From Candidatus Eisenbacteria bacterium (lineage in GTDB: Bacteria > Orphanbacterota > Orphanbacteria > Orphanbacterales > Orphanbacteraceae), in assembly GCA_016867715.1 (NCBI GenBank), contig VGIW01000012.1:1-55290 (forward strand): 55,290 nucleotides of DNA, read 5' to 3'. The translations under genes were made by a program, and so were the position numbers. Positions 386-13,697 of this stretch are shown in pieces. Position 1 is the first letter of the stretch; every line of letters begins with the position of its first letter. The notes under the pieces were generated by a model. It had not been told where the DNA came from. It ran no database searches and saw only the letters and a program-made list of their open reading frames with translations.

Positions 386-1096
386 ATGGACGAGGAACGG
401 AAGGTTCTGCCACTGAAGGAAGCTTATCGTTTCGGCGCAGAGAAAGGCCTCGGTCCGGAAATGGCCGAGATCAGGGAAATGGAGATTGAGTGGGACTTGT
501 CGTACAACTCGTCCCTGCGCCGCGGGTATGTCGTCGATCTCCTTGACCGGAAACAGCTGTTCGATGACTTCAAAGAGCAGTATTGGCCTGCAGGTAAGAC
601 TCCTTGGGGGGAGCGGAAGAGCGCGTTCTGGCTTCGCCTCAAAACTCGATATGAGGACTTTCTCGCGGGGCGTGGCGAAACCGTTGCTGACCCAGAGGAG
701 ACCGACGAGGATCAGGCGTTCGCGGCCGAGACTGACCTCCGAGATTTCCTCGCGAACAACCTTGGGTGCGTGGAGCCCGGCCTAGTGCTCTACCGTGACG
801 GCGAACGAACCGGCGTGGAGTTTCCAGTAGAGGACGGCCGCGTCGACATCCTCGCGGCCGACAGGTCCGGGCGATTCGTGGTCTTTGAGCTGAAGCTGGC
901 TCGCGGGCGCAACAAGGTGCTCGGGCAATTGCTCTACTATATGGGTTGGGTCGACCGACATCTCGGTCAGGCTCCCTGCCGTGGGGTGATCGTGGCGAAA
1001 GAGATCTCAGAGGATCTGATCTTGGCCACCCAGCGTGTCCAGGGCGTTTCGCTCTACCGTTACAAACTCAGCGTGTCCGTTGAGCGCGTAACCTGA
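386..1096 (+). CDS. NucS/EndoMS-like (DUF91) PDDEXK nuclease domain protein
   Basis: 236 aa. The C-terminal half (about residues 110-236) looks like the PD-(D/E)XK nuclease domain of the NucS/DUF91 group. Visible landmarks are Glu115 in a conserved helix, Asp154 in GRVDILA, the Glu168-Leu-Lys170 signature in VVFELK, and Gln181 in GQLLYYMGWV; these are the expected metal-binding and catalytic positions. NucS family enzymes cut branched or mismatched DNA. The N-terminal 105 residues do not resemble the NucS DNA-binding domain and I do not recognise them, so the substrate may differ. The ATG at 386 follows a good AAGGAGAG site at a 7-8 nt spacing. It stands alone on the accessory island left of the conjugation operon. 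Function in repair or defence is inference. Confidence 0.8.
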   Translation: MDEERKVLPLKEAYRFGAEKGLGPEMAEIREMEIEWDLSYNSSLRRGYVVDLLDRKQLFDDFKEQYWPAGKTPWGERKSAFWLRLKTRYEDFLAGRGETVADPEETDEDQAFAAETDLRDFLANNLGCVEPGLVLYRDGERTGVEFPVEDGRVDILAADRSGRFVVFELKLARGRNKVLGQLLYYMGWVDRHLGQAPCRGVIVAKEISEDLILATQRVQGVSLYRYKLSVSVERVT

Positions 1097-2725: not shown

Positions 2726-3208
2726 ATGGATCCCTCGCAAGCGCTTCGAGAATGGCTCGCGAACGAGGAGGAACTCCTGGGATTCCTACAGGAGCGCAAG
2801 TGGTTCAGCAAGCGTTTCCTCGTACTGACCGACCACCGTCTCATCCTCTTCGAGAGGCGGTTCTGGGGTCGCCTCAAGGACCTTAGTGATAAGCAATGGC
2901 GACAGTTCATTGATGTTCATCTCGAACAAGGGTTCTTTTCTTCAAGCATGAGGCTAACCTTCTTCACCTACCATGACTCCATCGCGTATCATGATCCACA
3001 CAATCCCAAGCAAATAGAGGCCCAGGCATGGGTCTTCGACAACTTGGACAAGAAAGGCGCCCGTCATGCCTACGTAATGCTTAAAGCCAAGGAAGGAGAA
3101 TGGAAAGAGAGGCGCCTCCGAGAGCAAATCGAGCGAGAGAAGTCTTGTCGTGCCGTTCACTTCCACGGTGTCCAGAACTTCCCTGAGGGTAGGGATTCTC
3201 CGACCTAA
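2726..3208 (+). CDS. Bacterial PH-domain-like protein
   Basis: 160 aa. The first 90 residues read as a bacterial pleckstrin-homology-like fold: an initial helix (LREWLANEEELLGF), then alternating strands with the typical KRFLVLTDHRLILFE pattern, where a protein describes how its product is displayed as a strand pair. The C-terminal half is helical and highly charged (KEGEWKERRLREQIEREK). There is no signal peptide or membrane helix, so it should be cytosolic or peripheral to the membrane. The ATG follows GAGGTG at a 5-nt spacing. It lies on the same strand as the conjugation operon but about 480 bp before its first gene, so a shared role is only possible. The exact family is uncertain. Confidence 0.7.
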   Translation: MDPSQALREWLANEEELLGFLQERKWFSKRFLVLTDHRLILFERRFWGRLKDLSDKQWRQFIDVHLEQGFFSSSMRLTFFTYHDSIAYHDPHNPKQIEAQAWVFDNLDKKGARHAYVMLKAKEGEWKERRLREQIEREKSCRAVHFHGVQNFPEGRDSPT

Positions 3209-3335
3209 CTTGGTGTCTCACCTAACGGCACCGAGTATCGCCGTGGTTATAAGCACTGGCCTGCCCCCCGAGAATTGGCTTTGGGGGAGAGTGGGTCTGT
3301 GACCGAGCGATTCTACGATCCGGTCTGGCAGGAAT

Positions 3336-3605
3336 ATGGCGATGTCCGGCAGCAAACCAGGACTGAGCACCATTTGGCTTACCGTCGTGAATAGCAGCCA
3401 TAACCGACACGACTATACGTTCGAAACCCTCACCGCCCGCGACCATCGTCAGGGCAAGCAACTAATTGGCCAAGGTGTGATGGTACTCATTGGAGGCTCA
3501 CTGCTATCATTGCTGATCGGGCTCCCTGAGGGTATTGCATTCTGTGTACTGGTCGGGATCGGCATGATCGTCTGGGGGCGTATCAAGATCTGGTCGCCCC
3601 GCTGA
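3336..3605 (+). CDS. Small membrane protein, function unknown
   Basis: 89 aa. The C-terminal half contains two closely spaced hydrophobic segments (about residues 48-62 and 66-82, VMVLIGGSLLSLLIGLP and IAFCVLVGIGMIVWG) ending in a basic tail, as in small two-helix membrane proteins. The N-terminal 40 residues are polar. The start is weak: AGGA lies only 2 nt before the ATG. A competing short frame, GTG at 3299 to a stop at 3394 (31 codons, MTERFYDPVWQEYGD...), has a better Shine-Dalgarno site (GGGGGAGA), so the true gene start or even a frameshifted longer gene is possible. No family recognised. Same strand as the operon that follows. Confidence 0.45.
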   Translation: MAMSGSKPGLSTIWLTVVNSSHNRHDYTFETLTARDHRQGKQLIGQGVMVLIGGSLLSLLIGLPEGIAFCVLVGIGMIVWGRIKIWSPR

Positions 3606-3690
3606 AGTCGGCAGGGCCTTCCACCCTGTGTGGTGGCGCGGTCTCATCTGAGATTCAGTTGAGCGAAAGGGACTTCCAGAGTTGCTCGCC

Positions 3691-4038
3691 ATGAGCGGTT
3701 GGAATCGCATCCGAATGGCACTGCGGAAGCTTCAGCGCTTCCTCCTACCCGACCGAGGTCGCTCGAGGACCAAGGGCTCTCGGCGTCACTTCATCACATA
3801 CCACGTCACACCCCCCGAAGCCCTTAGAGGTACTGAACCGGTCGGCTTCCCGCCTCTCCGTCGCGCCTCCCGCCGTCGACGCCGCGGGGCCGGACAAGGC
3901 ACAGATCCATCGTACGCCTCCTTCCGCATAGCGGCTCGTACACGACCTAAGCAGTGTCCCTTCTGCCGAAGTCGCGAGAGTGTAACCCGATCCTCCTCGG
4001 ATGGTTGGCAATGTAGAACCTGTGGATATCTCTGGTAG
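3691..4038 (+). CDS. Zinc-ribbon protein preceding the E1-like gene
   Basis: 115 aa from the ATG at 3691; a TTG at 3682 in frame is an alternative, and neither has a strong ribosome binding site. The only recognisable part is the C-terminal zinc ribbon, CPFCRSRES then CRTCGYLW, two CxxC knuckles in the last 30 residues. The middle is a basic, probably disordered linker (RRASRRRRRGAG). The stop is 25 nt before the GTG start of the E1-like gene, so it is probably the first gene of the conjugation operon. A zinc ribbon could bind nucleic acid or a protein partner. Whether it is a substrate adaptor or unrelated cannot be told from sequence. Confidence 0.55.
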   Translation: MSGWNRIRMALRKLQRFLLPDRGRSRTKGSRRHFITYHVTPPEALRGTEPVGFPPLRRASRRRRRGAGQGTDPSYASFRIAARTRPKQCPFCRSRESVTRSSSDGWQCRTCGYLW

Positions 4039-4063
4039 CTATCATGAAACGAGAGGAAAGACG

Positions 4064-5431
4064 GTGACAGATTTTTCGCTGCTGTCGATATCAGATCCCG
4101 AATTGAATCCATTTGACCGACAGGAACGAATGTCCTGGTGGGACGCGAAGAAGGTGAGCTCTTCCACCTTGCTCGTCGCCGGGGCGGGCGCTACTGGCAA
4201 CGAAACTCTGAAGAATCTAGCACTTCTGGGCGTGCGACGAATACTAGTCGCAGATTTTGACAAGATAGCCCTCTCGAACCTGAGTCGCACTGTGCTCTTC
4301 GCCAGAAATGACCTTGGCAGGAGCAAGGCGCGCATTGCTGCCAAGCGCACTCGGCAGATGTGCCTGGCGGAAGATCCACAGATCGATTGTTTTGACGGAG
4401 ACATCGTATGGGATCTCGGCACTGGCGTTTACATGGAGATGGACCTTGTCTTCGGTTGCCTCGACAATGCCGAGGCTCGGCTGGCCATCAATCGCCAATG
4501 TTGGCTGGCCAATACTCCCTGGATCGACTCCGGGATTCTGGAATTGGGGGCGCACGTAGCCACATACATACCTCTTGAGGGGCCCTGTTACCAATGTGGA
4601 ATACGGCGGGAGACCCTTGCTTCTGCACGCACTCGGTATTCCTGCGACGATTTCAAGAAGTCTTTACTTGCAGAAGGAAAGCTGCCAACGGTTCAGGTAA
4701 CCTCCGCGCTGGCTGCGGCCCTTCAAGTGCAGGAAGGCATGAAGCTGCTCTGCGGGCGGACAGCCAAAGGTGGGCGCTATTTTCACTACGATGGAAACAC
4801 AAACACACTGGATACTTACGACACGCAGGCAACGCCGAACTGCATCGCATGCACTACTTATCCTGGTGTCCATGCTCTGGGAGCATCTGCGGAGATGACG
4901 GTGCGGGAGTTTCTGACCTACGTGAGTGATGCCAAGTTGTCCGGCCGCGGTGCAACTCTCGATCTGCGAGGCGACAGGACATTTGTCTACAGTATCCGTT
5001 GTCCCGGATGCGGAAGAGCCCGACGCCTTCTGAAACCCTCATTCAAGCTTTTCGACACGGACGCATACTGTCCTCGTTGTAGACGGCGGATCCCGGAACA
5101 TACGGGCCCCCCGAATGATGTTCCGGCGGAGAAAACTCTCCTGCCAGCCCTCTCATTGCAGGCGAGTGAAGACCCGGTGCTGAATCTCAGACTGCGAGAT
5201 CTCGGTATTCCATGGTACCATGTCGTTTCTGTGCAGGATGCCGGGGGAGAGTATCGGTACTACCTCTTGGGCGCGGATCGCTCCCGAGTGTTCCCAAGCA
5301 TTACAATGCAGTCTCGTATTGGGCGCTCTCAGGAGAAGGAGACGACTGTCACCCGACGCCAGCTGATAGAAGTTTCCAGGTTACGGAGAGACCAGAAAGG
5401 AGAGGAATCGCAATGGCCGAGATCAAGGTGA
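4064..5431 (+). CDS. E1-like (ThiF/HesA/MoeB family) Ubl-activating enzyme
   Basis: 455 aa. The GTG at 4064 is chosen because GAGAGGAAAG lies just upstream; an ATG at 4001 would overlap the previous gene. Residues 30-230 form the adenylylation domain: GAGATG at 40-45 (nucleotide loop), Asp64/Asp66, Asn72 and Arg75 in LSNLSR, Lys88 in LGRSK, and catalytic Asp134 in CLDN. Two CxxC pairs at 175-178 and 260-263 match the structural zinc of ThiF/MoeB. Cys194 (RYSC), in the crossover loop before the VTSALAAALQVQEGMKLL helix, is the best candidate for the thioester cysteine. Residues 313-339 add an extra zinc ribbon (CPGC...CPRC), followed by a C-terminal LGIPWYHVVSV segment like that of other bacterial E1s. 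It should adenylate the Ubl encoded next. Its 3' end overlaps that gene by 19 nt. Confidence 0.9.
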   Translation: MTDFSLLSISDPELNPFDRQERMSWWDAKKVSSSTLLVAGAGATGNETLKNLALLGVRRILVADFDKIALSNLSRTVLFARNDLGRSKARIAAKRTRQMCLAEDPQIDCFDGDIVWDLGTGVYMEMDLVFGCLDNAEARLAINRQCWLANTPWIDSGILELGAHVATYIPLEGPCYQCGIRRETLASARTRYSCDDFKKSLLAEGKLPTVQVTSALAAALQVQEGMKLLCGRTAKGGRYFHYDGNTNTLDTYDTQATPNCIACTTYPGVHALGASAEMTVREFLTYVSDAKLSGRGATLDLRGDRTFVYSIRCPGCGRARRLLKPSFKLFDTDAYCPRCRRRIPEHTGPPNDVPAEKTLLPALSLQASEDPVLNLRLRDLGIPWYHVVSVQDAGGEYRYYLLGADRSRVFPSITMQSRIGRSQEKETTVTRRQLIEVSRLRRDQKGEESQWPRSR

Positions 5432-5670
5432 CCTTTGTCCATCCAACTGATGGGCGCAATGCGACCGTGACGCTCGATGACACTATGACACCCGAGGAGG
5501 CGATTGCGGAGTTAATTACCAATGACTTTATCGCTCCTAGCACGTTCGGGTACTGTCTCGGGAAGAAGGGTGGCGACCGGCTCGCGAACGACGTCGGACT
5601 TGGCCACGGGGGAGTTAAGGACGGTGACAAGCTTACCGTGATCCCAAACACCGATGCTGGAAGGCATTGA
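5413..5670 (+). CDS. Ubiquitin-like beta-grasp protein (putative modifier)
   Basis: 85 aa, a single domain. The pattern fits a YukD/EsaB-like beta-grasp fold: strand (IKVTFVHPTDG), strand (NATVTLDDTMT), main helix (PEEAIAELITNDF), then LGKKGGDRLANDVGLGHGGVKDGDKLTVIP, whose closing VKDGDKLTVIP resembles the last ubiquitin strand. The C-terminus is NTDAGRH, with no diglycine. If it is conjugated, the reactive end would be unusual, or the two residues after Ala-Gly would have to be trimmed, perhaps by the JAB protein encoded in the same operon. GGAGAGG lies 7 nt before the ATG. The start lies inside the end of the E1-like gene, and the E2 gene starts 12 nt after the stop. This linkage is the main reason to call it the modifier. 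Confidence 0.82.
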   Translation: MAEIKVTFVHPTDGRNATVTLDDTMTPEEAIAELITNDFIAPSTFGYCLGKKGGDRLANDVGLGHGGVKDGDKLTVIPNTDAGRH

Positions 5671-5682
5671 GAGGAGCCACCC

Positions 5683-6219
5683 ATGCCTAGCCCCCAACAA
5701 GCACGTCTAGTCCGCCTGAAGAACGATTATCAGGAAATGCTGAACATCAAGGGTGCGGTTGTCACTTGGCATGCCATAGGCGGGTCTCCTCCATACCTTG
5801 AGGAATATGAACTTGCTGTAAGGGTCCGCACGATCATCGGCCCCGGTCCATCTTACCGGGAAGAGCATCGCATTGGGGTTAGGCTTCCCCCTTCCTATCC
5901 GGTCTCCCCGCCCCTAATAGTTATGAAGAGCTCCCCACAGCCGTTTCACCCAAACTGGTTCGCAGATGGACGGTGGTGCTGTGGACCCTGGACCCTAGAA
6001 GGTTTGGGCCAGCACGTTGTGAGAATGATACGGACCCTGCAGTTCGATCCAGAAATAACGAACCCGGATAGCCCCGCCAATCGGGAAGCAAACACCTGGT
6101 ATCTAGAGCATCGCGAACGTGGGATCTTCCCCTGTGACCGAAAAGGACTTCCGGATCCGACGCAATCCCGTTTCGTCATGCAAAAGGAGACACTGAAGAA
6201 GACGTTCCGAATGGAGTAG
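5683..6219 (+). CDS. E2-like (UBC-fold) conjugating enzyme
   Basis: 178 aa. The UBC fold is clear: LPPSYPVSPP at 68-77 (the YPxxPP loop), then FHPN at 88-91, then DGRWCC, then the NPDSPANREA motif at 127-136 that closes the E2 core. Cys99 aligns with the E2 active-site cysteine (HPN, a short spacer, G-x-[IVW]-C); Cys100 follows directly and could confuse mutational tests. Asn91 takes the place of the HPN asparagine. The protein should receive the modifier from the E1 and pass it to a target. The C-terminal 40 residues are an extension without recognised motif. GAGAGGAG lies 6 nt before the ATG. Only 51 nt separate its stop from the JAB gene. Confidence 0.9.
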   Translation: MPSPQQARLVRLKNDYQEMLNIKGAVVTWHAIGGSPPYLEEYELAVRVRTIIGPGPSYREEHRIGVRLPPSYPVSPPLIVMKSSPQPFHPNWFADGRWCCGPWTLEGLGQHVVRMIRTLQFDPEITNPDSPANREANTWYLEHRERGIFPCDRKGLPDPTQSRFVMQKETLKKTFRME

Positions 6220-6270
6220 ACCTGGTCATGTGAAGCGGGCCATCTGACAAGACCGGATTGCGGGGAAACC

Positions 6271-7509
6271 ATGCCAAAGACGAAACTCCCGCCCGACCAT
6301 TCGAGGTTAACTGAGCAAATGGTGGCGATCGAACGACAGCGGTGGATTACTCAGGACCTTAAGGCTCTTGGAGCTCTATTAGATGGGAAGCAGGAGTCAA
6401 TACGGCTACTGAAGCAAAGTGGTGAAGGTGTTGACGCGCATGTGTTTCTCTTTGAAACGCGGTTGCCTCTGATCATTGGGGTTGGTGTGGAAGGCCAGAA
6501 CAAGTACAGGATTCCCTTCCACATTAAAGTCACGCTCCCTCGCGGCTATCCCCGAACGGCTTCCCCCATGTTTCGGATCCGCCCCATCCCATATCACCCT
6601 CTGGTGGATCGTCCTTCCTTTTTCCGTAGCTTCTTCACAGATTGGGCTACCTGGACGGGGCGTTTTCCTAACGGCCTGGCTCTCTCGGAGCAACTGGAAT
6701 TGTTGATCCGCTGTCTTGTTCTTATCCCGGAAGCACTGGCCCAGGTGAGCCCAAAGAGCAAATCCGCCGACGTGCAGGGATGGTACCAATCCGTAGTGAA
6801 AAGGGGGAGTTACCCGCTAGGGGCTGAGCGTTTCAGGCAAAGCAGCAGCGGGAGCGGGAAGACGTTTGCCATGGAAACCGAAGTTGTAGCGGGGGGCTCT
6901 GTCGGATCCGCCGCGAACGTGATCGTTAGGAAGCGCTTCGACATCGAGAAGATCACTCCGGCGTATCGTCCGGAGAAAGGGAGCGTCCCCAGGCTGACAG
7001 GTGTTACTCCTTCTAACGCCTCCAAAGCGAGTGGCTCGTATCAACTCATCATCACAAAGAGGGCGGCACGGGATATTCTTGATCACGTGCACTGGGGTGA
7101 GGAGCCGAGGGAGCCACTGCACGAGCAAGGCGGGATACTCCTCGGTTATGCGATCGAAGACATTAGGGCCGGTGTGATTTGCGGGGTCGTGAAACGAGCG
7201 GTGCCAGGAGAGCCATCGCGCGCTTCCAGCGTCTATCTAGAGCTGAATCACGACGCCTGGTGGCGCATGTATGCCATTGTCGATGATCTCTCGAAAGCGA
7301 ATTCCCAGCGCGGCTTGCACATTGTTGGCTGGTATCATACCCATCCAGGGAGTCTGGGCGTCTTCATGTCGGGCACTGATCTCAACACCCAGAGAACAGT
7401 GTTCCGCGCGGACTGGCAGTTCGCTGTCGTGATGAATCCACAACGCTGCATTTGGCGCGCGTACCATGGGCCCCATGCGGAGGAGTGTCTAGGGTTCTTG
7501 GAGGGCTGA
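6271..7509 (+). CDS. JAB/JAMM metallopeptidase fused to an inactive E2-like domain
   Basis: 412 aa in two parts. Residues about 15-160 look like a second UBC/RWD fold: LPRGYPRTASP at 89-99 and YHP at 108-110 match the E2 loops, but no cysteine occupies the active-site position, so this half is probably a binding domain. Residues about 250-412 are a JAB/JAMM peptidase: Glu285 in HEQGGILLG, His356 and His358 in GWYHTHPG, Ser367 and Asp370 in MSGTDLNTQ. These are the zinc ligands and active-site residues of Rpn11-type deubiquitinases. One extra residue lies between the HxH and the serine compared with the usual spacing of seven. It should process the modifier or remove it from targets. The ribosome binding site is weak (CGGGGAAACC). 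Confidence 0.9.
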   Translation: MPKTKLPPDHSRLTEQMVAIERQRWITQDLKALGALLDGKQESIRLLKQSGEGVDAHVFLFETRLPLIIGVGVEGQNKYRIPFHIKVTLPRGYPRTASPMFRIRPIPYHPLVDRPSFFRSFFTDWATWTGRFPNGLALSEQLELLIRCLVLIPEALAQVSPKSKSADVQGWYQSVVKRGSYPLGAERFRQSSSGSGKTFAMETEVVAGGSVGSAANVIVRKRFDIEKITPAYRPEKGSVPRLTGVTPSNASKASGSYQLIITKRAARDILDHVHWGEEPREPLHEQGGILLGYAIEDIRAGVICGVVKRAVPGEPSRASSVYLELNHDAWWRMYAIVDDLSKANSQRGLHIVGWYHTHPGSLGVFMSGTDLNTQRTVFRADWQFAVVMNPQRCIWRAYHGPHAEECLGFLEG

Positions 7510-7556
7510 GCGGGAACGAATGGACCCCTCGCGCCCTTCCTCGCGGATATCTAGGA

Positions 7557-8207
7557 ATGAATACCTATCTCCTGGATTCTCGGAAGCACGCGGCCTTCCT
7601 GGCGGAGGAGCGTATTGATCCATTCACCCGAGAGCCCTTGCGTCCCGGCGACGAGATCGTCATCTGCGCGAGGGATAAGATGGCATTTCATTTGGCTTCC
7701 TGGAACGTACAAAACGGGTGCCCGATCTGCCACTGCACGGAAACTGGCACTCTCCCAGTGTCGACCCGTCACCCGTCGTTCCGGCAGCGGACCAAGCCGC
7801 GGGTGACAGAAGTTGCGGAGAGGAGTATTCCGAGGAGGGAAGCAAGAGGCTCGAGAATCGGCGTCCTTCTCCTCGTCGGGGCTATGGCAGCTGTGGGAGT
7901 GTGGGGCGTTATATTTCGCGTAGATACTAGCTCCCGTGAACGGGCCCGAGCAATCGACCGCCGTGCAATTGCGAGGGGGGCCGTGTCCGCAGAGGTCACA
8001 GCCGTGAACCTGAGGCGCTCACCGGGGTACTTAGGGAAGAGCCTAGCCGACGTCATTAAGGAGGTTCCATCTGGTACTGGAGTGGAAATACTCAATGGAC
8101 CAACGGTGGTGGATGGATTGCCCTGGTGGGAGGTGAGGTGTTTGGGCTCTGCGGGTTGGATGGCGGAGCGGACGACGAGTGGGAAGAAGATCATAGCCAG
8201 GCAGTGA
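7557..8207 (+). CDS. Degenerate RING-like, transmembrane, SH3b protein (candidate E3)
   Basis: 216 aa from the ATG at 7557, whose ribosome binding site is poor. Residues 18-60 follow the pattern of prokaryotic RING fingers (CPYC..PIKPGEEVVVC..C...H..CW...GCPVC), but half the ligands are changed: the first CxxC is DPFT (Asp21, Thr24), then Cys37, Asp40, His45, Ser48, Trp49 and the last pair Cys55/Cys58. One zinc site (Cys37, Asp40, Cys55, Cys58) could survive; the other has only His45, as in U-box-type decay. A single membrane helix lies at 101-120 and an SH3b-like domain at about 148-216 (VNLRRSPG ... LPWWEVRCLGSAGWM). The SH3b part would face the periplasm if the N-terminus is inside. Operon position after E1, Ubl, E2 and JAB genes makes it a candidate E3 or membrane anchor; this is inference. 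Confidence 0.72.
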   Translation: MNTYLLDSRKHAAFLAEERIDPFTREPLRPGDEIVICARDKMAFHLASWNVQNGCPICHCTETGTLPVSTRHPSFRQRTKPRVTEVAERSIPRREARGSRIGVLLLVGAMAAVGVWGVIFRVDTSSRERARAIDRRAIARGAVSAEVTAVNLRRSPGYLGKSLADVIKEVPSGTGVEILNGPTVVDGLPWWEVRCLGSAGWMAERTTSGKKIIARQ

Positions 8208-8672
8208 GCCCAGAGAAGAGGTTGGCGGTATAGCCTGTGTACGAGCGAGTGAGAGGTGTGACGATCGCGAGCACTACAGGAGATAGGCATCCGATCACAG
8301 GGAGAAGGTTCTCGGCGGAGATTTTGGGACGCCATGCCGATTTCGCCCGACCGGCGATCGGGACAAGCCACGAATCGTCCCGAAATAGCCATCGCGTTCA
8401 CAGAACACGAAAGTCCCCTTCCGGCCCCACGACCGGAGCGTGAGACGAGAGCTGCCCACGCCGGGTCGATGCAGGGATGGGCTTTCACGGTGGGCGGGCC
8501 GCTCGGCTTTCTGCTCTCAGGATAGCCGCCGTTTCTTGAAGCGTCGATAGGGGACGCCGGGCGATTCTGTCAAGTGCTTGGTCGCAGGTTCGAGTCTCGG
8601 CCGGGGTGCCCGTTGGTACGCAAACTCTAACCGATTGATATTGATGAAGTTACGAGAGGGGGTTGGGGCTGG
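8208..8672. other. Island edge with a tRNA-like fragment
   Basis: No gene supported. At 8578-8609 the plus strand carries GGTCGCAGGTTCGAGTC followed by a CCGGGG block. This resembles the T-arm and 3' end of the tRNA-Asn gene at 8673-8744 (GGTTGCAGGTTCGAGTC on its coding strand), with a few mismatches that break the T-stem. It is in the opposite orientation to the tRNA gene and lacks the rest of a cloverleaf. It is best described as a decayed tRNA fragment left by recombination at the island border. Confidence 0.5.
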
Positions 8673-8744
8673 CTCCCCGGGCAGGACTCGAACCTGCAAC
8701 CAACCGGTTAACAGCCGGTTGCTCTACCATTGAGCTACCGAGGA
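8673..8744 (-). tRNA. tRNA-Asn(GTT)
   Basis: Complete cloverleaf on the minus strand: acceptor TCCTCGG/CCGGGGA (one G-T pair), D arm GCTC/GAGC, anticodon stem ACCGG/CCGGT with loop CTGTTAA (anticodon GTT), T arm GCAGG-TTCGAGT-CCTGC, discriminator G. CCA is encoded at 8670-8672. The accessory island lies directly on its 3' side, which is the usual target for integrases. Confidence 0.97.
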
Positions 8745-8799
8745 ACCTCAAGCGAGCCGATTCGTTCGGGACGGCCGGATCGCCGTCCCATGGTGCGTG

Positions 8800-8828
8800 A
8801 TTCTAGTGCATCCCGGACCGGATGAGAA
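8800..8828 (-). promoter_or_regulatory. Putative promoter of tRNA-Asn
   Basis: Minus strand TTCTCA (8823-8828), 17-bp spacer, TAGAAT (8800-8805): four of six and five of six matches to the sigma-70 consensus. The start would be near 8793, about 50 nt before the tRNA. A hairpin with stem GGGACGG/CCGTCCC lies in the leader at 8768-8789. Confidence 0.4.
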
Positions 8829-8883
8829 GGCCCGGGTGCGGACGCCGGGTCGTGCCGGCCTCCGCTCGCGGTCCGGGCCGCGG

Positions 8884-9366
8884 CTACTTCTCGAAGAGCT
8901 CGACCGCGGAGAGCATCACGTAGCAGTCCGGCTGCGGACAGACGTGCGGCTCCTCGCCCTCCGCGTGCTCGTGATCATGCTCGTGCTCGTGAGCGCACTC
9001 CTGCTCCGCTTCCGCCGTGACCGGCTCGACCACCACGAGTTCTCCCTCGACTCGGATGCGCGCCCCTTCACACGTCGTCGGCACGGTCACCGAATGATCC
9101 GCGCTCTTCGCGTAGATCTTCGCTCCGCCGGGGCCCTCCTCGACGAGCGCCCAGCAGCCGGAGCCCTTGCACACTCCCGTCACGGTCCCTTGCACCAACA
9201 CCGTTTCTCCGGCGTAGGCGCGCGGGTTCTCCATCAACTTGGCGATCGAAATCGTCTTGGTCGCGCCGATCGATTCGCCGGCCCTGTAGTACGGTTCGCT
9301 TCCGCATGCGACAGCGATGAGTCCCACAAGCGCGATCGCACCAATCGTCATCCGCGTTCTTCTCAT
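8884..9366 (-). CDS. Putative lipoprotein with DUF4920-like domain and His-rich insert
   Basis: 160 aa from the ATG at 9366, preceded by GAGGAG at about 10 nt; an ATG at 9384 lacks a binding site. The signal peptide ends in IAVAC, a lipobox with Cys21 as the predicted lipid anchor. The mature part resembles DUF4920/OB-like periplasmic proteins: SIAKLMENPRAYAGETV, VQGTVTGVCKGSGCWALV, then ARIRVEGELVVV. The CKGSGCW motif is conserved in that group. A metal-binding looking insert, CAHEHEHDHEHAEGEE followed by HVCPQPDC, lies near the C-terminus and could bind zinc, copper or nickel. It is a lone gene between tRNA-Asn and the end of the ribosomal operon. Role unknown; binding of metal is inference. 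Confidence 0.78.
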   Translation of the reverse strand: MRRTRMTIGAIALVGLIAVACGSEPYYRAGESIGATKTISIAKLMENPRAYAGETVLVQGTVTGVCKGSGCWALVEEGPGGAKIYAKSADHSVTVPTTCEGARIRVEGELVVVEPVTAEAEQECAHEHEHDHEHAEGEEPHVCPQPDCYVMLSAVELFEK

Positions 9367-9463
9367 CGAGCGAGATCTCCTCATCCGCAGTATCGTCGGC
9401 CTCGCGCTCCCCGCGAGGTCCGATCGAAGCTCCTCGCGTTCGATTCGAGACGCCGAACAGCAA

Positions 9464-9485
9464 GTCCCCGCGCCTCCGCGGGGAC
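9464..9485 (-). terminator. Probable terminator of the ribosomal operon
   Basis: Perfect 8-bp GC stem GTCCCCGC/GCGGGGAC with a 6-nt loop, 30 nt after the rplQ stop. On the minus strand it is followed by TTGCTGTT, a weak T-rich tract. Its place at the end of the long cluster supports a terminator, but the U-tract is imperfect. Confidence 0.5.
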
Positions 9486-9514
9486 CGCATCTCGAACCGA
9501 CCGCCGTCTCTTCC

Positions 9515-10003
9515 CTACCCCTTTTCGGCGGGCGCGGATTCCGTCGGCGTGCCCGCGCGCGCTGCGGCCTCTTCCTCCGCGCGCTTCCTCTCTTCCTTCT
9601 TCTTCTTCTTCTTCTCGACCTTCTCCTCGAGCTCCTCGATTTTCGGCTCGAGATCCACGAGCTCGATGAGAGAAAGCGGAGCGTTATCGCCCCGGCGGCG
9701 TCCCGCCTTCAGGATGCGCGTGTACCCGCCGTTCCGGTTGGCATAGGTCGGCGCGATGGTGTCGAACAGCTCGCGCACCACTTCCGCATCCGTGATCGTG
9801 CGCATCACGAGCCGCCGCGCGTGAAGGTCGCCCCTCTTCGCCGTCGTGATCAGCTTCTCGGCCAGCATTCGGAGCTCCTTCGCCCGGGCGTCGGTCGTCT
9901 CGATCCGACGCTTCCGGAAGAGCGATGTGACCATGTTCCGGAACATCGCCTCCCGGTGGCTCGTGCTCATGTTGAGGTGCCGGCCGGCTTTCTGATGTCG
10001 CAT
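9515..10003 (-). CDS. rplQ: Ribosomal protein L17
   Basis: 162 aa. The first 118 residues match bacterial L17, starting [13 protein letters not shown] and continuing through the conserved [14 protein letters not shown] and [18 protein letters not shown]17 binds 23S rRNA near the exit tunnel. A C-terminal tail of about 45 residues, rich in Lys, Glu and Ala ([13 protein letters not shown]), exceeds the usual length and is probably disordered. Last gene of the cluster, 20 nt after rpoA, as in the classical alpha operon. Confidence 0.97.
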
Positions 10004-10023
10004 CGCGCGAAACCCTTCCTTCC

Positions 10024-11031
10024 CTAGGTCTCGTTCGGCTCGGCGCCGCCGCCCGTATGCCCGGAGAGGACCTCATCCAGGTTCATCCCGAACGAAAGAT
10101 TCATGCCTCTCAAAATATCCGAGATCTCCTTCAGCGATTTCCGGCCGAAGTTCCTGTACTTCAGCATGTCGGCCTCGGTCTTCTGGACGAGATCGCCGAT
10201 CGTGCGGATTTGCGCCGACTGAAGACAGTTGCTCGAACGGACCGAGAGCTCCAGCTCATCGACGCTACGCGAAAAGAGATCGCGCAGCTCCTCGACCTTC
10301 TCGTCCTCGATTTCTTCTTCTTCCGTCGTCGGCTCCTGCTCGAAGGTCATGAAGAGAACGAGATGATCCTTCAGGATCTTGGCCGCGTGCGAGACCGCGT
10401 CCTCGGGGGCGATCGTCCCGTTCGTCCACACCTCGAGGATCAGCCGGTCGTAGTCGGTCTTCTGGCCGACGCGCGTCTCCTCGACGCGGAACGTCACGCG
10501 CCGCACCGGCGAGTAGAGGGAATCGACCGCGACCACGCCGATCGGGGATTCCTCGAGCGGCTGCTGGTCCGCCGCCACGTACCCGCGGCCCACGTTCACG
10601 CCGACCTGCATCTTGAGCGAGGCGCCCTTGTCGAGCGACGCGATATGAAGGGTCGGGTTCAGAACCGTCATCCCCGCGGGGACCTCGAAGAGATCCGCCG
10701 TCACCTCGCCCGGGCCCTCGACATCGAGCGCCAGCGGCTTCGGCTCGTCGCCGTCGAGCCGGATCACCAGGTTCTTGAGGTTCAAAACGATATCCGTGAC
10801 GTCCTCGACGACGCCCGGAAGGGTCGTGAACTCGTGCCGGGCGCCCTCGATCTTCACGTAGTACGGAGCCGCTCCCTGCAAGGAAGAGAGAAGCACGCGA
10901 CGGAGAGCGCTTCCGAGAGTGGTTCCGTATCCTCTCTCAAGCGGCTCGGCGACGAACTTTCCGTACGTCTCCGTGTGCGTCTCTTCTTCCCTCTGGATCG
11001 CCTTCGGCATCTGGAGACTCTTCCACTTCAT
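10024..11031 (-). CDS. rpoA: RNA polymerase subunit alpha
   Basis: 335 aa from the ATG at 11031, which follows a GGGGGCGG stretch; upstream in-frame codons run into rpsD. The N-terminal domain (about 1-230) has the dimerisation signature [21 protein letters not shown]; the C-terminal domain (about 250-320) has [15 protein letters not shown] and [12 protein letters not shown], which contact UP elements and activators. An acidic linker ([17 protein letters not shown]) joins them. Alpha nucleates assembly of core RNA polymerase. It lies between rpsD and rplQ as in most bacteria. Confidence 0.98.
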
Positions 11032-11050
11032 CTTACGCCGCCCCCATGGA

Positions 11051-11680
11051 CTACTTCGAGTAAAGCTCCACAATGAGCTGCTCGTTCACATTCGCCGGAA
11101 TCGCGTCGCGCGCGGGCATCTCCATTATGTGGCCGGAGAGCTTGTCGATATCCCGGGAGAGCCACGCGCAGAGCTGGTCCTCCCGGCGCCGTTCCTTCAC
11201 TTCCTTAAAGACATGAAGCGATCGGCTCTTCTCGGCGACCTGCACGACCTCCCCTCTCGCGAGCCCATACGAGGGGATGCTGACCTTGCGCCCGTTGACC
11301 TGAAAGTGGCCGTGACGGACGAGCTGCCGCGCCGCCGAGCGGGAGGGCGCGAACCCGAGACGGAAGACGACATTGTCGAGGCGCCTCTCGAGCAGCCGGA
11401 GCAGGTTGTCTCCGGTCACGCCCGGCTGCCGCTCGGCTTCCGCGAAGTACTTCCGGAACTGCCTCTCGAGAATGCCGTAGATCCTTCTCGCTTTCTGTTT
11501 CTCTCTGAGCTGCAATGCGAAGTCCGATTGCTTCCGGCGCGGACGCTGGCCGTGCTCGCCGGGAGCATACCCGCGCCGATCGAAGCTGCACCTCGGGGAG
11601 AAACAACGATCCCCCTTCAGGAAGAGCTTCGCCCCTTCCCGCCGGCACAGCTTGCACTTCGCGTCGGTGTATCGTGCCAT
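11051..11680 (-). CDS. rpsD: Ribosomal protein S4, zinc-binding form
   Basis: 209 aa, typical length. The N-terminus keeps the zinc knuckle Cys9-x2-Cys12 ... Cys26-x4-Cys31, so this is the C+ form. The S4 RNA-binding domain is seen in [29 protein letters not shown]4 nucleates assembly of the 30S body and in many bacteria represses its own operon. GGAGG lies 6 nt before the ATG. The gene is 19 nt before rpoA. Confidence 0.98.
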
Positions 11681-11725
11681 TCCCTTCCTCCGTGCGAACC
11701 GACGGCCCCCCGGCCGGGGCTCACT

Positions 11726-12118
11726 CTAGACGCGGCGCCTCTTCGGTGGCCGACAACCGTTGTGCGGAATCGGCGTCACGTCCCGAATCGACGAGATATC
11801 GAGGCCCGCAGCTTGCAGAGAGCGGATAGCGGCCTCGCGCCCCGCTCCCGGTCCCTTGACCAGGACTTCCACTTTCCTCAGCCCCATGGAGAGCGCCACC
11901 TTCGCCGACTCCTCGGCGGCGAGCTGCGCCGCGAACGGCGTGCTCTTCTTCGAGCCCTTGAACCCGATCCGCCCGGCGCTCGACCACGAAACAACGTTCC
12001 CCTTCGAGTCCGTAATCGTCACGATCGTGTTGTTGAACGTGGACTGAATGTGCGCCGTGCCGTACGGCTCGACCCGTTTGTCTTTCCGTTTCTTCTTCTT
12101 TTCCTTCGGGGGTGCCAA
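11726..12118 (-). CDS. rpsK: Ribosomal protein S11
   Basis: 130 aa. Conserved core from [18 protein letters not shown] through [18 protein letters not shown] to the C-terminal [13 protein letters not shown]11 lies in the platform of the 30S subunit near the mRNA exit. The start codon is TTG at 12118 with GGAGGT 6 nt upstream; no ATG lies nearby in frame. The N-terminal [11 protein letters not shown] stretch is a basic extension. Confidence 0.98.
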
Positions 12119-12172
12119 GCGCGGACCTCCTCTCCCCGGTCTTCCCGCGGAGCGCTGCGGGGCCGACCCGCC

Positions 12173-12547
12173 TTACGACTTCTTCTTCATGACGCCCGAA
12201 CCCTTCTTCGGGCCTTTTCTCGTGCGCGCGTTCGTGCTCGTTCTTTGACCGCGCACGGGGAGTCCTCTCCGGTGGCGGAGGCCGCGATACGTCCCGATGT
12301 CCATGATCCGCTTGATGTTCATGGCCACCTCGTTGCGCAGGGCTCCCTCGACCTTGTGCTCGTTCTCGATGATCTTCCGGAGCTTGGCCGTGTCTTCCTC
12401 CGACAAGCTCTTCGCGCGGAGATCGGGGTTCACGCCCGCCGCCGCGAGAATCTTCCGCGACGTCGAGAACCCGATCCCGTAGATGTAGGTCAGAGCGACC
12501 TCGATGCGCTTCTCGGCCGGGAGATCGACCCCAGCGATACGGGCCAC
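12173..12547 (-). CDS. rpsM: Ribosomal protein S13
   Basis: 124 aa. Starts with GTG; GGAGG lies 7 nt upstream. Typical landmarks: [25 protein letters not shown], the helix-two-turn-helix region, and the C-terminal [20 protein letters not shown] that reaches into the intersubunit bridge to L5. S13 sits in the 30S head. Between rpmJ and rpsK as in the classical arrangement. Confidence 0.98.
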
Positions 12548-12579
12548 CGGCGACCCTCCTTTCCTCGAAACCTAAAGCA

Positions 12580-12696
12580 TCACTGCTGTTTCTGTTTATG
12601 CCGCGGGTTCTTCTTGCAGATGACCCGCACGATCCCATTTCGTTTCACGATCTTGCAGTTCTCGCAGATCTTCTTTACCGACGCCCGCACTTTCAT
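12580..12696 (-). CDS. rpmJ: Ribosomal protein L36
   Basis: 38 aa, too short for most gene finders. Translation begins [15 protein letters not shown] and ends [11 protein letters not shown]. The zinc ligands Cys11, Cys14, Cys27 and His33 give the C-x2-C-x12-C-x5-H pattern of the zinc-binding L36. L36 is among the last proteins to join the 50S subunit. It sits 29 nt after infA and 32 nt before rpsM, its normal place. Confidence 0.96.
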
Positions 12697-12725
12697 CGCA
12701 ACTCACCTCGCATCCGCGTTCGCTT

Positions 12726-12944
12726 CTACTTGTATCGATAAATGATCCGGCCGCGGCTGAGGTCGTACGGAGACAGCTCGACCGTGACCTTGTCCCCGGG
12801 CAGGATTCGGATGAAGTGCATGCGAATCTTCCCGGAGATATGGGCCAGGACTCGATGGCCGTTCTCGAGTTCCACCCGGAACATCGCGTTCGGGAGGGGC
12901 TCGATCACGGTTCCCTCGACCTGCACCGCCTGTTCTTTCGCCAT
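12726..12944 (-). CDS. infA: Translation initiation factor IF-1
   Basis: 72 aa, exactly the family length. A single S1-like OB fold: [21 protein letters not shown], then [19 protein letters not shown] and [15 protein letters not shown]. It binds the 30S A site during initiation. GGAGGAAGG directly precedes the ATG. It lies 9 nt after map. Confidence 0.98.
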
Positions 12945-12953
12945 CCTTCCTCC

Positions 12954-13697
12954 CTAGCTCGTGAGGATGTCGGGGCCGTTCTTGCGCACGGCGACCGTGT
13001 GCTCGAAGTGCGCGCTGAGCGACCGGTCCGCGGTCACCACGGTCCAATCATCCTCGAGGAACCGTACGTCGGGGCCGCCCGCGTTCACCATCGGCTCGAT
13101 CGCGAGGACCATCCCCTCTCGAAGACGCACTCCTTTTCCGGGGCGCCCGTAGTTCGGGACCTGCGGGTCCTCGTGCATGTTGCGGCCGATGCCGTGCCCG
13201 ACCAACTTGCGGACGATCGAGAACCCTTGCGCTTCCACCTCGCTCTGCACCGCGTGGGAGATATCGCCGAGACAGTTCCCGGGGCGCGCCATCTCGATCC
13301 CCTTGTAGAGCGCCGCGCGCGTCGCATCGAGAAGTCTCTTCGCTTCGTCGCCGATCTCCCCGACCGGGAACGTCGCCGCCGAATCTCCGTGGAAGCCGTT
13401 CTTGTAAGCGCCCACGTCGATCCCGACGATGTCTCCCTCTTTCAGCGCCCTATTACCGGGTATTCCGTGCACGACCTCCTCGTTGATCGAGGCGCAGATG
13501 CTCGCGGGGTACCCGTTGTATCCCTTGAAGGACGGCTCCGCACCGCGCGATCGGATGTGCGCGGCGATCAGCTCGTCCAGCTCCTCCGTCGTCACGCCCG
13601 GAGCGATCTTCTCCGCCGCGAGGCGAAGCGCGCTCGCGACGATCGCCCCGCTCTCCCGCATCCTCTCGATCTCCTCGTCCCTCTTCAGAATGATCAT
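12954..13697 (-). CDS. map: Methionine aminopeptidase type I
   Basis: 247 aa, type I length without an N-terminal extension. The pita-bread metal site is visible: [10 protein letters not shown] (first His), [20 protein letters not shown] (two Asp), [17 protein letters not shown] (His), [10 protein letters not shown] and EHTVAV (two Glu). It removes the initiator methionine from new proteins. It follows secY by 16 nt; the adenylate kinase gene often found between them is absent. Confidence 0.98.

Follow-up and report, generated by a model that had tools for sequence, protein, structure and literature searches.

Gene content and organization of the locus

The window, meaning the whole 55,290-nucleotide stretch of DNA that was analysed, carries at 3691-8207 six forward-strand genes that overlap or are separated by short gaps. 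Their order is zinc-ribbon protein, E1, ubiquitin-like modifier (Ubl), E2, UEV-JAMM protein and RING-like transmembrane (TM) protein. This arrangement had been proposed in an initial annotation made from the sequence, and all six open reading frames (ORFs) exist on that strand. The features of the cassette and its surroundings are listed below.

386-1096, forward strand: NucS_C-like nuclease, similar to the candidate defence family PDC-S02 (context, outside the cassette)
3691-4038, forward strand: zinc-ribbon protein, 115 residues, C-terminal zinc ribbon CPFC...CRTC, homologue in L001
4064-5431, forward strand: E1-like adenylating enzyme with one ThiF domain, zinc pairs (CxxC) and a C-terminal zinc ribbon
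5413-5670, forward strand: YukD-like Ubl modifier, 85 residues, C-terminus TDAG-RH
5683-6219, forward strand: E2 conjugating enzyme with HPN at 89-91, Cys99 and NPDSPANREA
6271-7509, forward strand: JAMM isopeptidase with an N-terminal UEV-like domain
6334-6840, forward strand: UEV-like (Cys-less E2) domain, residues ~22-190 of the JAMM protein
7557-8207, forward strand: RING-like protein with one TM helix and a C-terminal region without a recognised fold
7611-7742, forward strand: degenerate RING, ligand positions D21, T24, C37, D40, H45, S48, C55 and C60 from alignment with family RINGs
7857-7919, forward strand: predicted TM helix, residues 101-121, hydrophobic stretch IGVLLLVGAMAAVGVWGVIF
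8567-8610, no strand assigned: inverted partial tRNA-like copy (inverted repeat) at the right edge
8670-8744, reverse strand: tRNA-Asn (GTT), identified with ARAGORN

The homologue of the zinc-ribbon protein lies immediately upstream of the E1 gene in L001 (6873-7172), and the zinc-ribbon profile was built from these two proteins. By profile matches and conserved residues, the E1, Ubl, E2 and JAMM genes make up the complete conjugation and deconjugation set that had been annotated. The cassette, which appears intact, likely encodes a self-contained and reversible Ubl conjugation pathway.

The E1, Ubl, E2 and JAMM proteins

The E1 protein gave one ThiF match in Pfam (E = 3.9e-44), at residues 49-281. 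The E1 start is probably the GTG at 4064, which has a ribosome-binding-like AGAGGA shortly before it. The previously suggested thioester residue, Cys194 (Cys215 in a longer ORF that begins with an ATG at 4001), is kept in 20/20 full-length family E1s compared, and the catalytic and zinc columns are conserved across the family alignment. The family profile matches structures of UBA1, SAE2, UBA3, MoeB, ThiF and UBA5, in keeping with the annotated E1-like enzyme. An E1-like ORF with 39% identity to the window E1 was also found on a viral contig (L008 4246-4758), directly after phage-tail-like genes (P2 GpU-like). In viral contigs the E1 profile found one contig, with an E1-like ORF beside P2-like tail genes, which was rejected as not belonging to this system.

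The window Ubl consists of one beta-grasp domain in 85 residues and on its own matches YukD weakly (E = 0.02). YukD was matched by 17/17 aligned family Ubls (best E = 1.5e-15) and ubiquitin by five, and searching the PDB with the Ubl profile returned ubiquitin matches, bearing out the annotation as a beta-grasp Ubl. Ala-Gly is the Ubl end in 19 of 22 alignment rows and Gly-Gly in one (Crinalium). In five Ubl genes the stop codon directly follows Ala-Gly, and the others add tails of ~1-11 residues, a pattern implying that processing leaves a glycine free at the C-terminus. Because Ala-Gly is so widely conserved, often with a short tail, the mature window Ubl probably ends in ...TDAG. Such ends would be expected if the C-terminus is adenylated and a protease processes the precursor, and no other sequence feature speaks more strongly for adenylation and conjugation of the Ubl; the Ala-Gly signature could also help in searching for the modifier and in assaying it.

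The E2 protein is eukaryote-like, matched UQ_con (E = 7.5e-6) and contains HPN 89-91 together with the Cys99 and NPDSPANREA features noted at the outset; the best PDB match of its family profile was UBE2A/Rad6 (E = 3.4e-16). The annotated JAMM peptidase matched JAB (E = 2.3e-8), and its residues E285, H356, H358, S367 and D370 are invariant in the family alignment. The closest Foldseek match of the modelled JAMM domain was the Caldiarchaeum Rpn11-ubiquitin complex (E = 2.7e-10).

The N-terminal domain of the JAMM protein aligned with the E2 profile (hhalign probability 94.5%, E = 7e-8; HMMER E = 9.6e-7), so by profile comparison the first 190 residues are homologous to E2s. This domain is without the active-site Cys and has HPL where the E2 has HPN, in agreement with the inactive E2 domain described in the initial annotation. 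Its model has the order helix-strands-helices at a confidence (pLDDT <60) too low to confirm a UBC fold. A free-standing Cys-less E2 paralogue is encoded beside an active E2 in L054 (12308-12982), a locus with two JAMM genes.

The RING-like membrane protein

In the product of the last gene, one TM helix follows a RING-like region. The degenerate RING that had been annotated was recovered with Prok-RING_1 (E = 0.0016) and with the family RING profile (E = 8.5e-5), and its hhalign score of 27.3 exceeded the maximum of 19.5 among 100 shuffles. Four of the eight exact RING ligands are kept, the changes being C-to-D, C-to-T, C-to-D and C-to-S, which would leave at most one near-complete zinc site. 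The region was modelled at pLDDT >90 from an input alignment that included RING rows, and the model had no significant match in the PDB (best E = 0.73, to the RNF126 RING). Since only 4/8 ligands are kept and no significant PDB match was obtained, E3 activity may have been lost. SP-RING and U-box domains have few or no zinc ligands, yet act as E3s, and the window RING may be likened to them in its economy of zinc ligands. The topology of the protein is ambiguous, because basic residues flank the TM helix on both sides. The SH3b domain earlier assigned to this protein was not recovered: Pfam and PDB searches gave 0 matches each, and the C-terminal region, modelled as helical with low confidence, has no recognised fold in either database.

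Genomic site and origin

The cassette has a GC content of ~0.55, versus 0.63 in the ribosomal-protein region. In a blastn comparison, a sibling contig is 93.5% identical across 8569-13412, which covers the ribosomal-protein and tRNA-Asn region. Synteny stops at 8569, and the sequences to the left of this point are unrelated. At this break, 8567-8610 repeats part of the tRNA-Asn 3' region in inverted orientation (80% complementary), and tRNA-Asn is also present in the sibling and three other family members. At the same tRNA-Asn site the sibling carries two BrxC/D-like ATPase genes (L066 2-1872; PF10923, 5.6e-19), and a search for its left flank gave no match in the genome of the window. The cassette is absent from six phylum members, and the E2 is missing in the sibling and five other family members. 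Given the low GC, the synteny break at 8569 and the absence from phylum members, the simplest and most likely reading is horizontal acquisition of the cassette at a site beside tRNA-Asn, consistent with the earlier placement on an island beside a tRNA gene: the low-GC segment has its edge near tRNA-Asn. The contig starts 3.7 kb upstream of the cassette, and the left boundary of the island lies outside this view. In the upstream part, the nuclease at 386-1096 matched NucS_C (8.6e-10) and PDC-S02 (5.1e-19). Near the contig end, at 1208-2465, lie six copies of an imperfect, GC-rich repeat built around CCACAGGCGGGAGCGCG as its core.

Relatives and co-occurrence

The nearest relative is an 8.4-kb Oscillibacter MAG contig, possibly mis-binned, which encodes a Ubl, two E2s, two JAMM proteins, a zinc-ribbon protein and an E1 at identities of 40-55%. 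The only relative found by tblastn of plasmids is a mobilizable Crinalium plasmid with an E1, two Ubls, an E2, a JAMM protein with a C-terminal TM segment and, farther downstream, a small RING-like TM protein; the E2 profile found no relative among viral contigs. The first E2 profile matched 1/399 genomes of the phylum of the Oscillibacter contig and 2/290 genomes spread across families. In another phylum, 25 of 392 sampled genomes have a matching E2, and E1, E2, Ubl and JAMM occur together in 17 of 26 fetched stretches, some relative loci ending at contig edges. The core is thus found together in the Crinalium plasmid, the Oscillibacter contig and these 17 stretches. By sequence profiles, the Ubl groups with ubiquitin, the E2 with Rad6-type enzymes, the E1 with E1s and the JAMM protein with Rpn11. 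The refuting conditions named in the initial annotation, a lack of co-occurrence in relatives or of the expected folds, thus found no support. Among the E1, E2, Ubl and JAMM proteins, distance matrices correlate at r = 0.81-0.90, a level reached in 0/2000 permutations.

Two arrangements were found. Compact relatives have the order E1-Ubl-E2-JAMM. Their neighbours encode an M28 peptidase, a T2SSE ATPase, a transglutaminase-like protein and an FHA-SpoIIE protein, and ten flanking proteins gave no convincing PADLOC or defence match. In one compact operon (L044), a Ser/Thr protein kinase gene lies directly 3' (2930-3793). Extended relatives (L034 8178-15698; also L035, L036, L039-L042 and L045) have the order Ubl, E1, JAMM(TM), FHA polytopic protein, RING/TM proteins, RING/TM/trypsin-like protease and E2, and some of their E2s have a Cys-rich tail. 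The FHA polytopic protein is conserved in these operons, the JAMM proteins carry TM segments, and RING and TM segments are fused to a trypsin-like protease (Trypsin_2, 2.2e-20). RING-TM proteins adjoin the core in relatives, and four-gene cores without a detected RING also occur (L044, L049, L051 and L055).

A second cascade in the same genome

A second complete cascade lies on contig 35 of the same genome (L005 8125-14589 and L071 118-3754). It comprises a RING protein (Prok-RING_1, 1.4e-6), E1, E2, an unknown protein, a Ubl ending in EAGRR and a JAMM protein, and the sibling carries a RING-E1-E2-Ubl-JAMM set of this type too. The cascade adjoins a gene for an AAA protein that carries OB domains of the proteasomal-ATPase type, and contig 35 also has two genes of the Pup-ligase family (1.9e-85 and 1.6e-74), an arrangement in which a possible meeting of ubiquitin-type with Pup-type tagging could be tested. 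The genome yielded no 20S core: its sole PF00227 match was rejected as a 20S proteasome partner, as it adjoins HslU and XerC and corresponds to HslV.

Proposed pathway and alternative readings

From these proteins we infer the following cycle. The JAMM enzyme would trim the Ubl precursor from TDAG-RH to a C-terminal Ala-Gly, and the E1, using ATP, would adenylate the C-terminal glycine and load the Ubl onto Cys194. The Ubl would then pass from the E1 to Cys99 of the E2, which would couple it to an amino group of a substrate, a step that likely takes place close to the membrane and probably with help from the membrane-anchored RING-like protein. The same JAMM enzyme, placed by its Cys-less E2 domain, would remove the Ubl again. 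An envelope link is plausible, because several relatives have TM segments on RING or JAMM proteins. In its fullest form this proposal describes a membrane-coupled ubiquitin pathway in which a one-TM, half-zinc E3 of SP-RING/U-box-like character recruits the E2, a JAMM enzyme with its own UEV recognises the E2 or Ubl chains, and the modifier ends in Ala-Gly; taken as a whole, this version is doubtful. A cassette this small and intact would allow direct tests of how E3 function and membrane recruitment came about before eukaryotes.

The same cascade could run with the RING-like protein as a non-catalytic membrane receptor or adaptor and with an E2 that acts without an E3, as is reported for Bil-type systems. 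This has a real, if less than even, chance of being correct: the changes of four ligand positions to D, T, D and S, the lack of a significant structural match for the RING model and the four-gene cores without a detected RING all favour it, whereas the E3 activity of SP-RING and U-box domains despite their few or no zinc ligands, and the remaining profile similarity of the window RING to family RINGs, speak for a catalytic role. A sulfur-carrier or cofactor pathway of the ThiS/MoaD type, with no protein conjugation, would account for a MoeB/ThiF-like E1 with one adenylation domain, but every complete relative has an active-site-bearing E2 and a JAMM enzyme, the Ubl is YukD-like rather than ThiS- or MoaD-like, and no metabolic genes lie alongside, making this reading very improbable. 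Chance assembly of unrelated genes, for which nothing was found to speak, has a negligible probability and was ruled out by the co-occurrence of the core across phyla and the correlated protein distances (r = 0.81-0.90).

As to biological purpose, we favour defence or stress response, though this is unproven. That the Ubl might be put on phage or host proteins during infection, by analogy with Bil, comes close to an even chance. Sporadic distribution, a plasmid relative, the BrxC/D-like genes at the sibling's tRNA-Asn site and the PDC-S02-like nuclease upstream of the cassette are consistent with an anti-phage system, but the flanking proteins of compact relatives lack convincing defence matches, the cassette does not correspond to a PADLOC system, and partners elsewhere (FHA, HtrA-like protease and Ser/Thr kinase) look more like signalling or proteostasis. 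Membrane signalling or quality control is what the extended relatives suggest, and we tentatively consider that membrane RING proteins bring the Ubl to membrane substrates in envelope or proteostasis signalling. The fusion of RING, TM segment and trypsin-like protease, the TM segments on JAMM proteins and the conserved FHA polytopic protein suggest such a function, although the window operon is without a protease partner and the C-terminal region of its RING protein has no recognised fold.

Comparison with known systems

Like Bil operons, the cassette combines Ubl, E2, JAB and E1, but BilA is built of a pair of Ubl domains and BilD contains a pair of adenylation domains (PMC11354881), whereas the window encodes a single-domain Ubl and one ThiF domain. 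PADLOC models gave no match to BilA, BilB or BilC and only a partial one to BilD (1.8e-7), and the cassette is not a PADLOC system. Assignment to Bil was rejected, as both the two-domain ISG15-like BilA and the inactive/active adenylation pair of BilD are missing. Bub systems (PMC12687455), compared here by name only, are also operons with Ubl, E1, E2 and protease. The CBASS Cap2/Cap3 and 6A-MBL systems share E1, E2 and JAB homology, but their E1 and E2 form one protein, in contrast to the separate genes and dedicated Ubl of the window; with no Cap2 E1-E2 fusion in the cassette and no CD-NTase match among its proteins, type II CBASS was rejected as well.

The reconstituted Caldiarchaeum subterraneum operon has the parts Ub/E1/E2/srfp/Rpn11, and its Rpn11 processes archaeal ubiquitin (PMC5654768). 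The five-part list is equal to that of the window, and the window JAMM domain finds its closest structural match in Rpn11; however, the Caldiarchaeum ubiquitin ends in Gly-Gly, its RING protein is small and a UEV-JAMM fusion is unreported there (PMC5654768). In the type 6d systems of Iyer 2006, JAB has an N-terminal alpha+beta domain, and type 6e has an inactive RWD-like E2, tandem Ubls and mostly a JAB-E1 fusion (PMC1779556). The window JAMM likewise has an N-terminal domain, and the window likewise has an inactive E2, but its Ubl is single and the inactive E2 is fused to JAMM. The 6e polyUbl assignment was rejected, the tandem Ubl domains being missing from the single-domain window Ubl.

Burroughs, Iyer and Aravind reportedly predicted in 2011 a class of bacterial YukD-Ubl/E1/E2/JAB/RING systems. 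The window cassette fits this class, with a YukD-like Ubl, an E1, an active E2 and a JAB in one operon, and with a RING that matches by profile (8.5e-5), has half of its ligands changed and gives no significant structural match. The class itself is not new. The initial annotation had called the cassette a distinct variant, which holds with respect to Bil and CBASS on the tested features. It is a little-studied form among bacterial Ubl systems, whose better-known members act against phages. To our knowledge, none of the studied bacterial Ubl systems (CBASS, Bil and Bub) has been described with a membrane RING partner. Compared with the 2011 class, the window may differ in its fusion of UEV and JAMM, its half-degenerate membrane RING and its separate zinc-ribbon gene; the fusion, the half-RING membrane protein and the Ala-Gly signature are its distinctive features.
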